Shown: piece after piece, positions 45,017 to 60,468 of the stretch
How positions within the stretch are numbered: position 1 is the stretch's first letter
Layout of the letters: each line of letters opens with the position of its first letter
Assembly (NCBI GenBank): GCA_021776795.1
Contig: JAJFFC010000005.1
Coordinates: forward strand, 62,001-126,000
DNA from: Planctomycetota bacterium
GTDB taxonomy: Bacteria > Planctomycetota > UBA1135
DNA length: 64,000 bases
Direction: 5' to 3'
Notes under the pieces: generated by a model
The model's input: the letters and a program-made list of their open reading frames with translations, nothing else
Database searches by the model: none
Told to the model about the DNA's origin: nothing
Position numbers and translations under genes: made by a program

Positions 45017-46702
45017 ATGGCGGAGAACCCCAATGAATACGCGCTTCAGGTTATTGGCCTGAACAAGTTTTACGACCGCACCCAAGTGTTGAAGGACATC
45101 ACCTTGTCGTTCTTCGCTGGGGCCAAGATTGGCGTCATTGGTGCGAACGGTTCGGGCAAGACCACGCTGCTGCGGATTTTGGCCGGTGCCGATAGCGAGT
45201 TTGAAGGTCAGCGGATTCAAATGGCTGGGCGCACGCTTGGCTATGTGCCGCAGGAACCGCAACTCGATCAAGACAAAACGGTGCGCGAGGTTCTCGACGA
45301 AGCTGTAGCGCATATTCATGCTGTCACCGATCGCTACAACGAAATCTGCGGATTGATGGGCGAAGCCGATGGCGAGGCCTTGGAAAAGCTTGCCGAGGAG
45401 TTTGACCGGCTGCAGGCGGAGATCGACACCCATGACATGTGGGAGATTGACCGCTTGCTCGAGAAGGCGGCCACTGCCTTGGATTTGCCGCCCATGGATC
45501 AAAGCTGCTCGGTGTTGTCCGGTGGCGAGGCGCGCCGGGTCGCCCTGTGCAAAACCTTGCTGGAATCGCCCGACATTTTGCTGCTGGACGAACCAACCAA
45601 CCACCTCGATGCCGCCACCACCGAATGGCTCGAGCATCACTTGGCCAACTACCCGGGCATGGTCATCGTGATTACTCACGACCGCTACTTCCTCGACAAC
45701 GTCGTCGAATGGATGCTCGAAATCGACCGTGGAACCGCCCGCCCCTATCAGGGCAACTACTCGTCCTACCTTGAGGCCAAAGAAAAGGAGTTGGAGCTGA
45801 GTGAACGCCAACAAGACAAGCGGCGCAAGCGCCTAAAGAGCGAGCTCGATTGGGTACGCCAAAACTCCAAGGCCCGTGGCAATAAGAATAAAGCGCGTAT
45901 TCAGCGCTATGACCAGTTGGTGGAGCAACAAGAGAAGCTGCGCCCAGAAACCATCGACCTCATGATTCCCTCCGGCCCGCGCCTTGGCAATAAGGTGATC
46001 GAGATGGAACATGTCCGCAAGGGATATGGCGACCGCATCTTGATTGAGGACCTCTCCCTGACTATGCCGGCCGGTGCCATTGTTGGCGTGATCGGCCCCA
46101 ATGGCGCAGGGAAAACGACCCTGATGAAAATGGTCGTGGATTTGGAAGAGCCTGATTCCGGCACCATTACCTTTGGCTCCACGATTGAGGCCTGTTTCGT
46201 CGACCAGCGTCGCGCCGAACTGTCGGATGACCGCTCCGTGTTCGAAGAGATTACCGACGGCCTCGAGTTTCTTCCCTTTGGTGCCGGCGAAATCCAATCT
46301 CGCGCCTATGTCTCGCGCTTTAACTTCAAGGGCACGGACCAAGAAAAACTAGTCGGCAACTTATCCGGAGGACAGCGTAACCGGGTCCAACTCGCCAAGA
46401 TGCTTCGCGTCGGCGGCAACCTCATCATCTTGGACGAGCCGACCAACGACCTCGACTTGCCCACTACGCGTGTTCTCGAAGAAGCGATCGAGCACTACGC
46501 CGGCTGTATGTTCGTGGTCAGCCACGACCGCTATTTCCTCGACCGCATCTGCACCCACATTCTCGCCTTCGAAGGCGACGGTCAAGTCGAGTTCTTCTAC
46601 GGCAACTACAGTGAGTATGCCGAGTGGCTAGCTCAGCGACGCGAAGCCGAAGGCAAAGGCCCTGATTCTCGCGCCGCCAAGCATCGCAAACTTTCGCTCT
46701 AG
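45017..46702 (+). CDS. ettA: ABC-F ATPase EttA (energy-dependent translational throttle)
   Basis: Two ABC domains; VIGANGSGKTTLLRILAG, LSGGEARRVALCK, LDEPTNHLDA; IVGVIGPNGAGKTTLMKM; RFNFKGTDQEK typical of EttA. Confidence 0.93.
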   Translation: MAENPNEYALQVIGLNKFYDRTQVLKDITLSFFAGAKIGVIGANGSGKTTLLRILAGADSEFEGQRIQMAGRTLGYVPQEPQLDQDKTVREVLDEAVAHIHAVTDRYNEICGLMGEADGEALEKLAEEFDRLQAEIDTHDMWEIDRLLEKAATALDLPPMDQSCSVLSGGEARRVALCKTLLESPDILLLDEPTNHLDAATTEWLEHHLANYPGMVIVITHDRYFLDNVVEWMLEIDRGTARPYQGNYSSYLEAKEKELELSERQQDKRRKRLKSELDWVRQNSKARGNKNKARIQRYDQLVEQQEKLRPETIDLMIPSGPRLGNKVIEMEHVRKGYGDRILIEDLSLTMPAGAIVGVIGPNGAGKTTLMKMVVDLEEPDSGTITFGSTIEACFVDQRRAELSDDRSVFEEITDGLEFLPFGAGEIQSRAYVSRFNFKGTDQEKLVGNLSGGQRNRVQLAKMLRVGGNLIILDEPTNDLDLPTTRVLEEAIEHYAGCMFVVSHDRYFLDRICTHILAFEGDGQVEFFYGNYSEYAEWLAQRREAEGKGPDSRAAKHRKLSL

Positions 46703-47751
46703 AGTTTGACCTCTTCGTAGTGCTTCGCACAAGCCGCTTGCGACTTGTAATCGCAGCGCTCACAGGAAGACTTGTAGCCCGGTTTACGCGCTTCAATCAA
46801 CGCACGCGCAGCATCGTAGGCATGGAGTTCAATCTTGCCGCCCTTGCCCTTCTTCATGGCAGAGCGATAAGTCTTGACGGCCTCCAAGTACTCCTTGGCG
46901 CCCTCTAGTTCCTTGGCTTCGGCAAAAAGCTTGCCGCCATTGATTTCCTTCTTGTAGTTCTTCTCCTCTTGCAGCATGAGCATGCGTTGCTCCATTTCTG
47001 CAGCGCCGTCGTAAGGAGACTCATTTCCGAGGTAAGGATCCACTAGCTGAGTGGCGCGGAAGTAGAAACCCGTTTCTATGCTCTCGGTTGCCTTTGCAAA
47101 AGCCCTGGCGCCCTGATCCATCAAGTAAGCCTTGTAGCGACCAGCCCAAGCGGCGTCTTTCTCATCGAGCTTTGGCGTCACCTTTTCGAGCTCTGCCATG
47201 GCGTCGATCGCCTTGCCCTGGTCCATCAGCTTAAAGGCCTTGGAGAGCTTCTTCGGATAAGGACCGCCCTTGGTGGCCCCCTTCATGGCTTTCTCGACTG
47301 CGCTGTGCGCGCTCGACGGGTGGCCGGACCACTGCAACTCGTTGTCGAAGAACACACCCGAGGTCGGGAATCCGCTGACCCCAATCACCTTCTCTAGTGC
47401 GCCATCGGGCAGAATGACCACCGGGTGGGTGACATTCATTTCCTTCATGTACTGGTCAACCAGTTCCTCTTTCTCATCAGTCACGCTGATGACGACCAAA
47501 CCCTTTTCCATGCCGTCTTCCCATTCGGAATTGAGCATCGGGATTTGGCCCTTACAAGGGCCTCACCAAGTACGGAAGACTTCGATCAGGACAGCCTTCT
47601 GTTTAAAATCTTCTACCGACAGAGGTGGTGTGTTGTACCACTTCAATGCCTTGAGTTCGGGCATGGTGCCACCTTCCGGGCCTCCGCCCCCGCCCAGGAA
47701 GGGCAGAGCGAGTGCACCGGCGAGAACGGCTACAGGAGCGTGAAATTTCAT
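46699..47751 (-). CDS. Secreted thioredoxin/TlpA-like selenoprotein candidate: in-frame UGA at W-U-G-P-C (UGA at 47565..47563)
   Basis: ORFs 47563..47751 and 46699..47538 are in the same frame, joined by GTACTTGGTGAGGCCCTTGTAAGGGCCAAATCCCG = ..TW*GPCKGQIP; cis-Pro GFPTS downstream; signal peptide upstream. Confidence 0.88.
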
Positions 47752-56734: not shown

Positions 56735-56809
56735 GCACGGGCGCGTTCTCGCGGATTTTTAACAGAAATTCCTCAAGTAGAGGCTTGGCGCGTGCGCCAA
56801 AAAGGTGTC

Positions 56810-57217
56810 ATGGTCCGCCTCTTCTTATCCTTCCCACTCGCCGCCTTCGCCCTACTCGGCGCGACGGCCTGCTCTTCCGGCCCCACTATACTCACGCACG
56901 ACAATGGCGAAGTCGCCTTGCGTGTGGAGTCTGGTGTGGACGAAGTCGAAGTGGAGAACATGAAGGTGCGCAAGCGCGACGGCCGCGCCACCGCCCAGTT
57001 CCACCTGGTCAACGAGGGCGATGAACTCCGAAGGGTCTTTGTTTCCCTGGAATGGTTCGATTCTGACGGCTTCCTCCTCGATGATTCGATGGAAGTCGAT
57101 CCACGCGAGCGCACCTTCACCCTGCGTGGGGAAAACGCGCGCACCTTGACCTTCTTTAGTCCCGAAGGTGGCTCACCCAGCAAACTACGCTGCGTGATTG
57201 AACACGTCGACCTCTAG
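56810..57217 (+). CDS. YcfL-like (DUF1425) lipoprotein
   Basis: Lipobox ALLGATAC; VRKRDGRATAQFHLVNEGDELRRVFVSLEWFDSDGF. Confidence 0.7.
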   Translation: MVRLFLSFPLAAFALLGATACSSGPTILTHDNGEVALRVESGVDEVEVENMKVRKRDGRATAQFHLVNEGDELRRVFVSLEWFDSDGFLLDDSMEVDPRERTFTLRGENARTLTFFSPEGGSPSKLRCVIEHVDL

Positions 57218-57768
57218 ATCGCTAGGCGTTCTCGCCACATCACCAGTTTCTGTTCGCGCGACAATGCGGCATGAGCTGGGGAAGTGCTTGGAAGTGGGAT
57301 CAGAATCGGCAGCGGTTGCGCCATCGGCCAGGTGGGAACGATGTGCTTCTTCCAGGCGGACATGGCCTTGTTGCCATTGAAGGCCACGCGTTGAATGCTC
57401 GGATGCGCGGCAAGGAAGTCCGCTAGTGGATGCGCTTCTTCGCTGGCAACGACAATCCGGCTATCCAAGCTGCCCTCGCGTTGGCACTGGCCGAGGACGT
57501 CCCATAAAGCGACCTTAGCTTTGCCCAGACCCGCAAGTCGTTCGTCATAGGCGGCACTGAGTTCCACCCCCCATAACTGTTCGGCAATCCACCAAAAGGC
57601 ATTGCGCGGATTGGCATAGTATTCCGCCGCCTGTAGAGAGGGAGCGCCGGGCATGGAACCTAGAATCAATAATTGAGCGCCGATTTCCACCACGGGAGGG
57701 AAACCGACGCAAACAGAAATCGCCGAGGACTCAGCGGAAGAAGCGTCCGAGCGCGCCTTGTTTTTCAT
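57214..57768 (-). CDS. Uracil/deoxyinosine-DNA glycosylase superfamily protein (MUG-like)
   Basis: LLILGSMPGAPSLQAAEYYANPRNAFWWI; VAFNGNKA; PLPSTSPAHA. Confidence 0.85.
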   Translation of the reverse strand: MKNKARSDASSAESSAISVCVGFPPVVEIGAQLLILGSMPGAPSLQAAEYYANPRNAFWWIAEQLWGVELSAAYDERLAGLGKAKVALWDVLGQCQREGSLDSRIVVASEEAHPLADFLAAHPSIQRVAFNGNKAMSAWKKHIVPTWPMAQPLPILIPLPSTSPAHAALSREQKLVMWRERLAI

Positions 57769-58336
57769 AATATTGCTGGTGGTACTCTTCCGCGCGAATG
57801 AAGTCGCCAGCCTCTTCGACTCCGGTAGCCACCACTCGATCGGAAGTCTTCTGCAGTTCCGCAATCGAAGCTTCCGCCAACTTACGCTGCTCCTCATTGT
57901 GCACGAAAATGGCAGAACGGTATTGATCACCGATATTTACGCCTTGCCCATTGGCCTGGAAGGGGTTGTGGTTTTCCCAGAACAACTGCAGCAGATGTTC
58001 GTAGCTCACTTGCTTGGGGTCAAAGCGAATATGCACGGCCTCGGCATGTCCGGTAGTGCCGGAGCAAACCATTTCATAGGTCGCGTTCGGCACATCGCCA
58101 CCGATGTAACCCGATTGAGTTTCTAATACGCCCTCGACTTCACGGTAGAGAGCTTCCACACCCCAGAATCAGCCTGCGGCAAAGGTGGCCTCGGCCACAA
58201 CAGCCGTAGGGTCATTGGCAAAATTGGTGGTCGAGGTAGTCATGGTGTTGGATTGTCCGGTGGAACAGGCCGCCGTCAGCAGCAAGACCGGGCTGAGCTT
58301 GCTCCATGCGGCGGAAGAGAATGCGCGAAAGGCCAT
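57731..58336 (-). CDS. msrA: Lipoprotein peptide methionine sulfoxide reductase A, selenoprotein candidate: in-frame UGA at G-U-F-W-G (UGA at 58171..58169)
   Basis: Reverse-strand reading from ATG 58336: MAFRAFSSAAWSKLSPVLLLTAACSTGQSNTMTTSTTNFANDPTAVVAEATFAAG(UGA)FWGVEALYREVEGVLETQSGYIGGDV...; lipobox LTAAC. Confidence 0.92.
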
Positions 58337-58344
58337 AGTGCTTC

Positions 58345-59271
58345 TTAGGATAGCGGAAGGAGGGACTCCAGGGCGGCATCTAGTGTGGGGAGTGCAAAGC
58401 CAAAACCGCTCAGGAGCAGGGCTTCGGGGCGGATTTTCATGCTCTCGAGGACCAATTTGGCCTCTGAGCCGGCAAGTCTGGCGCCAAGCTTGATGCCAAA
58501 GGCGGGTGCGGGCAAGCCAATCGGACGGCGCAGCACTCGGCGCATTTCCGCCATGAAGGCGGCATTGGTCACAGGATGCGGGGTAGCAAGGTTGATTGCC
58601 CCCTGTAAATCCTCATGCTGGTAGGCGTGGACGATGGCGGCACAATAATCTTGCACCGCAATCCAACTCATCCATTGTTTGCCACTGCCGGCGCGGCCAC
58701 CTAAGCCCCATCGCGTGATGCGTTGCAGCACAGGAAGAGCGCCGTCGTTGCCCAACACCACACTGGTGCGCAGGGCAAGACGCCTGGTTTCAGGCAAATC
58801 GCGAGCCATCAACTCCTGCTCCCAAGCAATGCCGATATCGCGAAGCTCCTCTCCCGGGCAAGGTGGTGCCGCTTCGGTTGCCGCCGGGTTCTCGCCCCAA
58901 ACCGGCTCGTAAATGGCGCCAGTAGAAGCATTCATCCACACTCGCGGTGGATTTTCGCAGGCGGCGATGGCTTCGCCCACTGCACGCGTGGTGTCGATGC
59001 GAGAAGACAAAATTTGGCGCAGGTTCTCGGGTGTGTGGCGGCAATTGATGCTCCGGCCAGCAAGGTTGATGACCAAAGCGGCGCCCTCTAAGCGTTTCGC
59101 CCAAGGACCTTGAGCACGACCATCCCAAACTTCATGCGCACAACCGGCAACAGCAGGGGTTGCGTGCCGGCTCACGGTGACGACCTCTAAGCCCGCCCGC
59201 TGCAGGGCCTCGGCCAGATGCGGGCCAAGAAAACCGTTCGCGCCGAAAAGGATTGCCTGTGGAGCCTCCAT
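58345..59271 (-). CDS. TIGR01777-type NAD(P)-dependent epimerase (SDR superfamily)
   Basis: ILFGANGFLGPHLAEALQ, VINLAGRSINCRHTPENLRQILSSRIDTTRAVGEAI; start chosen at MEAPQ. Confidence 0.9.
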   Translation of the reverse strand: MEAPQAILFGANGFLGPHLAEALQRAGLEVVTVSRHATPAVAGCAHEVWDGRAQGPWAKRLEGAALVINLAGRSINCRHTPENLRQILSSRIDTTRAVGEAIAACENPPRVWMNASTGAIYEPVWGENPAATEAAPPCPGEELRDIGIAWEQELMARDLPETRRLALRTSVVLGNDGALPVLQRITRWGLGGRAGSGKQWMSWIAVQDYCAAIVHAYQHEDLQGAINLATPHPVTNAAFMAEMRRVLRRPIGLPAPAFGIKLGARLAGSEAKLVLESMKIRPEALLLSGFGFALPTLDAALESLLPLS

Positions 59272-59313
59272 AGCAGGAGTGTAGGACATCAGATGCTGCC
59301 GCTAAACTCCGCT

Positions 59314-60468
59314 ATGCGATTCCTCGTCCTTGCGCTCCTGCTGTGTTCCTGTCAGAACCCAAACCTGCGCCATGACCAATCTCCGTCAACCATGAGCAAC
59401 ACTCTTGCCCTGCGCCCTCTCAGCCCAAAGGAGGTCTCTGCCTTTGCCCGCTTGGCACTAGACGGCATTGAGCGGCCCTTCCCTAATAAGCCCGGGCAGG
59501 TATATGTTGGCCCAGAGTCTGCTGTGGTACCGCAGGACATGCACCCTGTGTTCTATGGATCCTTTGATTGGCACAGCTCGGTACACGGCCATTGGATGTT
59601 GGTGCGCCTCTTACGCCATTACCCCAACAGTCCGGTTGATGCGGAAATCCGCAGCCTGCTCGCACGCCAACTCACGCCGGAGAAACTCGAACAGGAAGCC
59701 GCCTACTTCACCCCGAAGCACAACCAGGGCTTTGAACGCATGTATGGCTGGGCCTGGTTACTACGCTTGGCGCAGGAGCTGGAAATGGGCGCTACCGAGG
59801 ACACGCAAATCGCGGAGTGGCGCGAAGCCATTCGACCATTGGAAATGCGGATTGTGGAGCTCAGTATGAACTACTTGCCGCGATTGAGTTGGCCGATCCG
59901 CACTGGAGTGCACCCGGACAGCGCCTTTGCTTTGGGCATGCTTCTCGACTATGCCGAGGTCGTCGACAACCCAGAACTCGCTGCCTTGGTGCGCTCGCGG
60001 GCGCAAGATTTTTACGGCCAAGATCGCAACTACCGCGGCGCCTACGAACCCTCTGGTGAGGACTTCTTCTCCGCCGGTTGGAATGAAGCTGACCTCATGC
60101 GCAGGGTGCTTTCCCCCGCAGAGTTCCGCCGCTGGCTAGATGGCTTCCTCCCTGGTTTGGCCACGGGGGACGTCGGCAATCTGCTGACACCTGTTGAAGT
60201 CAGTGATCCTACGGATGGCCGCTTGGTTCATCTTGCTGGCCTCGACTTGTCGCGGGCATGGACCATGCTTGGTGTGGCCTCGGCCTTGCAAGAGGATGAT
60301 CCACGCCATGGCCTCTTGCTTGAAGCCGCAGCAGCCCATCGCGAGGCCGGCCTGGCCTATGTCTTCAGTGGCCACTACGAGGGCGAACACTGGCTCGCCA
60401 GCTTTGCGGTATATCTGCTTACGCGGGCTGGTCTCGACGAGGTGGGACCACCAACAGCGGAACGCTAA
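59314..60468 (+). CDS. DUF2891-like lipoprotein
   Basis: Lipobox-like LALLLCSC; HPVFYGSFDWHSSVHGHWMLVRLLR, GEDFFSAGWNEADLMRRVL. Confidence 0.8.
   Translation: MRFLVLALLLCSCQNPNLRHDQSPSTMSNTLALRPLSPKEVSAFARLALDGIERPFPNKPGQVYVGPESAVVPQDMHPVFYGSFDWHSSVHGHWMLVRLLRHYPNSPVDAEIRSLLARQLTPEKLEQEAAYFTPKHNQGFERMYGWAWLLRLAQELEMGATEDTQIAEWREAIRPLEMRIVELSMNYLPRLSWPIRTGVHPDSAFALGMLLDYAEVVDNPELAALVRSRAQDFYGQDRNYRGAYEPSGEDFFSAGWNEADLMRRVLSPAEFRRWLDGFLPGLATGDVGNLLTPVEVSDPTDGRLVHLAGLDLSRAWTMLGVASALQEDDPRHGLLLEAAAAHREAGLAYVFSGHYEGEHWLASFAVYLLTRAGLDEVGPPTAER

Follow-up and report, generated by a model that had tools for sequence, protein, structure and literature searches.

A probable selenocysteine-type MsrA with a predicted lipoprotein signal in a planctomycete genome

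Features of the msrA locus

The window, i.e., the whole 64,000-nucleotide stretch of DNA analyzed here, corresponds to contig C26:62001-126000 of a 3.26-Mb planctomycete genome that is 89% complete and assembled in 31 contigs. The features of the locus are compiled in Table 1.

Table 1. Positions of msrA, its elements and its neighbors in the window
Feature	Position	Strand	Remarks
msrA	57731..58336	-	201 codons including one UGA read through; own TGA stop 57733..57731
Sec-UGA codon, residue 56 (putative)	58169..58171	-	Catalytic position of GCFWG; aligned to the catalytic Cys of 1ff3
PMSR (MsrA) catalytic domain, residues 49-193	57758..58192	-	Pfam match; high-confidence AlphaFold region with MsrA fold
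Predicted lipoprotein signal, residues 1-24	58265..58336	-	Lipid-anchor Cys24 (LLLTAAC-S); relaxed lipobox pattern
SECIS-like hairpin	58130..58153	-	Arms 58153..58145 and 58138..58130; loop CGUGAA 58144..58139; one mismatch
NAD-dependent epimerase (Epimerase + DUF1731)	58345..59289	-	Upstream of msrA; ends 8 nt before it
DUF1425-like small lipoprotein	56792-57217	+	Just below the Pfam cut-off; conserved MsrA neighbor in the family
DUF2891 protein	59218-60468	+	Conserved MsrA neighbor in the family

Translation of the msrA frame (57731-58336, minus strand) yields MAFRAFSSAAWSKLSPVLLLTAACSTGQ...EATFAAG*FWGVEALYREVEGV...EKQGALGRFFR*, in which the only internal stop is a TGA. Apart from this TGA at 58171..58169, the gene contains neither a further stop nor a frameshift. 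A preliminary description of the locus had noted that the mechanical ORF call begins at an internal GTG (58159) and thereby cuts off the catalytic motif, which agrees with the ORF list. It had also placed the TGA at the catalytic Cys codon of GCFWG in a frame open to ATG 58336, and this was borne out by the translation and by the alignment with Escherichia coli MsrA (PDB 1ff3), in which residue 56 falls on the catalytic Cys. The nucleophile motif is intact, with U replacing C. The read-through frame scored 207 bits against PF01625 (curated cut-off, 23.7) and 188 bits against TIGR00401 (curated cut-off, 108), and its AlphaFold model, built from 36 input sequences, fits MsrA structures. The active-site columns of the alignment are conserved, and the domain is otherwise intact. 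No second MsrA, with Cys or otherwise, was found in the 89%-complete source genome, so that the intact Cys ortholog that would have marked this copy as a pseudogene did not turn up. Plasmid records contained only homologs of less than 60% identity.

A TATCCT box located 10 nt before the ATG had been pointed out previously. Since the upstream epimerase gene stops 8 nt before the ATG and its 3' end overlaps the box, the latter is poor evidence for a promoter. Judged from this gene arrangement, msrA is more likely expressed by read-through from the upstream gene. The epimerase gene was not found next to msrA in the relatives examined.

Conservation and evolution of the TGA codon

MsrA genes with TGA at the catalytic codon occur in 12 of the 26 family genomes surveyed and in five genera, namely g1, g3 (six genomes), g5 (two), g6, and g13 (two). 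As the position is shared by 11 further genomes from this family, its placement at this exact codon is beyond chance. This conservation also excludes the sequencing error, a misread TGC, that had been named as a possible refutation. An assembly in 31 contigs at 89% completeness does leave room for a misread TGC or TGT codon, and genes in decay are most often recognized by a premature stop. However, an error or a decaying pseudogene is extremely improbable given the identical TGA in 11 other genomes, a conserved domain free of additional stops and frameshifts, the standing of this gene as the sole MsrA of the genome, and a full set of Sec genes.

The survey of the order comprised 154 genomes. 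Among the reported matches from the 128 genomes of its other families, no TGA was found in MsrA. At the level of the phylum (395 genomes, strict threshold), one further TGA-containing MsrA was detected in a different family (genome G282), with TGA likewise at the catalytic codon. This protein (L187, G282:C55:20000-24500) has a tail Cys (YYEKAGCRV) and, at its N terminus, a hydrophobic stretch that lacks a lipobox Cys. Another genome (G017) encodes, besides a Sec-MsrA, a protein (L044/L144, G017:C568:4673-5116) that resembles MsrA but has Ser (AGT) in place of the catalytic residue.

A quick tree implied three changes between Sec and Cys. A single Sec clade was not rejected (AU test, P = 0.65), and the tree constrained to it reached a higher likelihood; gain of Sec and its loss in the Cys-containing genus g10 are therefore both compatible with the data. 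The Cys lipoprotein MsrA of g10 (L031, L039) is joined to the Sec copies at a node that has a support of 90 and is not starred, a grouping compatible with either direction of change. The same g10 gene adjoins the DUF2891 neighbor. As DUF2891 is found next to both kinds of MsrA, a single locus appears to accommodate either a Sec enzyme that lacks the tail Cys or a Cys enzyme that has it.

Selenocysteine machinery and decoding of UGA

The preliminary description had called for a search for Sec machinery in the genome, and all of the components were found. SelB (640 amino acids) is encoded on the same contig as msrA, and SelA, SelD, and a tRNA-Sec with anticodon UCA lie within approximately 7 kb on contig C4; all four scored above their curated cut-offs. 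The SelD gene has an in-frame UGA of its own, at SSGUAAK. Across the set of relatives, tRNA-Sec exceeded the cut-off in 40 of 41 genomes.

Genome-wide reassignment of UGA was considered and rejected. In-frame TGAs are also present in TlpA-like genes and in SelD, as would be expected if the codon specified one of the ordinary amino acids genome-wide, yet TGA terminates 13 of the 38 long nonoverlapping ORFs in the window as well as msrA itself. The internal TGAs that were seen sit at redox-active Cys positions (WUGPC, SSGU, and GUFWG), no widespread TGA at non-Cys positions of essential genes was seen, and a dedicated tRNA-Sec (anticodon UCA) is encoded in the genome. Reassignment is thus barely credible. 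The best reading of residue 56 is selenocysteine, which is supported by these sequence comparisons; tRNA-Sec and SelB would decode UGA 58171..58169, guided by a hairpin just downstream.

A conserved hairpin downstream of UGA

The hairpin proposed initially, GUGGA-AGCUC-UCUAC at 10 to 14 nt after the UGA, had to be replaced. The conserved structure is the one given in Table 1, which begins 15 nt past the UGA, with its loop beginning 24 nt past it. A nine-pair hairpin at nucleotides 19 to 42, counted from the U of UGA, is common to eight distinct lipoprotein MsrA sequences, with 98.6% of its paired cells in these eight relatives able to pair. Pair 22-39 occurs in four types (A-U, G-C, C-G, and G-U), and its covariation alters the amino acids on both sides, which are Leu and Glu here and Ile or Val and Asp elsewhere. 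When synonymous shuffles that keep the relatedness of the sequences were used as the control, the fold energy of the alignment was matched in 6 of 500. Shuffling each sequence independently was a poor control, as it destroys relatedness, and the Cys set, too, outperformed every one of 500 such shuffles.

The bSECIS model specifies a loop of 3 to 9 nt, a stem of 4 to 16 bp, a G within the first two bases of the loop, a spacing of 16 to 37 nt, and a minimum free energy of at most -7.5 (PMC13188914). With its CGUGAA loop, G in second place, distance of 24 nt, and -9.5 kcal/mol, the window hairpin fits these constraints, its stem consisting of two stacked segments with one mismatch. In a scan for this permissive model, some Cys homologs passed as well. 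The value of -9.5 kcal/mol was calculated for the hairpin alone with its one mismatch. Single-sequence stability was not distinctive: it was not above that of synonymous shuffles (z = +0.9) and did not separate Sec from Cys homologs, and stable folds were likewise obtained for Cys sets from other families. A search of Rfam returned nothing for the window under gathering scores and nothing, SECIS included, for the 121-nt stretch at E values of up to 10. Overall, conservation and covariation provide moderate evidence for the hairpin as a putative SECIS element. The fused MsrB-MsrA copies have a different hairpin, for example CCGUC-AGGUU-GACGG, with the AGGUU loop present in two of three.

Predicted export

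A relaxed lipobox pattern was matched in all nine single-domain Sec-MsrA copies; Thr at position -3 in the window copy is less typical. Two Cys orthologs likewise have a hydrophobic stretch with a lipobox-like Cys at its end. The MsrA product would accordingly be exported and then lipid anchored via Cys24. Alternatively, translation may start at the internal ATG 58243, leaving the lipobox-like stretch unused and the enzyme in the cytoplasm. An in-frame ATG indeed follows the lipobox region (MTTSTTNFAND), and the lipobox is not of the strictest form. We consider this quite improbable, however, because a lipobox-like Cys after a hydrophobic stretch recurs in all of the single-domain Sec-MsrAs of the family and in the two Cys orthologs, and a purine-rich AAGAAG precedes ATG 58336.

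The only MsrB of the source genome (L190 1068-1568, minus strand, G000 contig C12) is likewise predicted to be a lipoprotein (MRFLSLILLGTLAAC-S); its RYCMN motif holds a Cys. As a pair, the lipoprotein MsrA and MsrB would take care of the two epimers of methionine sulfoxide on the extracytoplasmic side.

The earlier proposal, a lipoprotein MsrA whose catalytic residue is selenocysteine, is thus supported by the Sec genes, the TGA shared by 12 genomes, the hairpin, the lack of a Cys copy, and the conserved lipoprotein-like signals. We consider it very probable that the window msrA encodes a Sec-MsrA, which is predicted to be an exported lipoprotein and would work by a one-selenol cycle with an exported reductant.

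Proposed catalytic cycle and candidate reductants

A Cys in the C-terminal tail was found in none of the nine single-domain Sec-MsrAs versus 84 of 96 distinct single-domain Cys homologs; the fused MsrB-Sec-MsrA copies keep it in two of three. The window MsrA, which has no tail Cys, retains Cys91 within its domain. In the proposed cycle, the selenol of Sec56 would attack protein methionine-S-sulfoxide and release methionine. Owing to the lack of a C-terminal resolving Cys, the oxidized Sec would be reduced by an outside molecule. A competing proposal keeps the exported Sec-MsrA but assigns Cys91 the role of an internal resolving residue, with no one-Sec cycle. This Cys is invariant in 11 Sec copies and is the sole Cys of the window protein besides the lipobox Cys. 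It is, however, nearly invariant in Cys homologs that keep tail Cys residues too, and therefore looks structural, which makes a resolving role unlikely.

In the one-selenol cycle, the oxidized selenium would be reduced directly, by a thiol or selenol reductant that is itself exported and supplied via DsbD. DsbD is present in the source genome. The 1-Cys type Sec-MsrA of Clostridium oremlandii is reduced by glutaredoxin and not by thioredoxin (PMC4479559). Candidate reductants are Sec-containing TlpA/ResA-like proteins. Export of MsrA, its one-selenol cycle, and an exported thiol reductant are what we infer from the sequences; Sec-TlpA is possibly that reductant.

The window itself contains a TlpA/ResA-like gene (46699-47751, minus strand) in which TGA 47567..47565 replaces the first Cys of WCGPC to give WUGPC. 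This is presumably the second catalytic-Cys UGA that had been mentioned for the same 64 kb. Orthologs with one TGA are present in nine other genomes of the family (40 to 51% identity), and TGA-bearing paralogs are numerous in the family, with one in the source genome (C26:167421-168137).

A broader scenario can be drawn in which the family has moved methionine sulfoxide repair outside the cytoplasm and onto selenium, with a lipoprotein Sec-MsrA, after loss of its resolving Cys, being recycled directly by Sec-TlpA/ResA-like proteins that are exported as well and fed by DsbD. We put it forward tentatively and regard it as somewhat unlikely.

Relation to known MsrA systems

Sec-MsrA is a listed family of bacterial selenoproteins with a GUFWG/H motif (PMC13188914), has been seen in ocean metagenomes (PMC2398784), and is thus already established; selenoproteins have also been reported from other planctomycetes (PMC4807772). 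The window protein is consequently a new member with variant architecture and not a new family, the enzyme type being known. A search of the open-access literature returned no description of a lipoprotein or MsrB-fused Sec-MsrA, and, going by sequence, an exported Sec-MsrA without a helper Cys looks like a little-described version of the enzyme.

With these findings, Planctomycetota gain a well-supported group of Sec-MsrAs, an enzyme that mechanical ORF calling cuts short there. They also reveal a natural experiment at the DUF2891 locus, at which Sec goes together with the lack of a tail Cys in some genera, and Cys with its presence in one genus. This allows a test of whether a resolving Cys becomes dispensable with Sec. 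Exported selenoproteins seem to be abundant in the lineage, and its redox biology is therefore probably misread by standard annotation.

Compared with E. coli MsrA (PDB 1ff3 and 6yev), the window protein has the same domain and fold, approximately 50% identity, and an aligned catalytic residue. The E. coli enzyme, however, uses a Cys nucleophile with two C-terminal resolving Cys residues (3-Cys type, PMC4479559) and has no Sec. The g10 Cys-MsrA of the same family is a sister branch that shares the lipobox-like signal and the DUF2891 neighbor but differs in its TGT catalytic codon and its C-terminal Cys (...NGISCPTQ). The MsrB-Sec-MsrA fusions of g6 and g13 (L027, L035, and L041) have TGA at the same position in an MsrA domain that is 49 to 52% identical. 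Unlike in the window protein, this domain lies behind MsrB, no lipobox was matched, two of the three have a tail Cys, and the hairpin is another one.

The enzyme of Clostridium (Alkaliphilus) oremlandii, CoMsrA (PDB 4lwj and 4u66; PMC4479559 and PMC4333827), resembles the window MsrA in its Sec nucleophile, its fold, and the lack of a resolving Cys in the tail. CoMsrA, which is of the 1-Cys type, possesses a helical domain at its C terminus and is entirely free of Cys, whereas the window MsrA, at about 30% identity, is without the helical domain, keeps Cys91, and carries a lipoprotein-like signal. Recycling by Sec-TlpA, if true, would represent an extracytoplasmic version of the pairing between Sec-MsrA and Sec-glutaredoxin in C. 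oremlandii.
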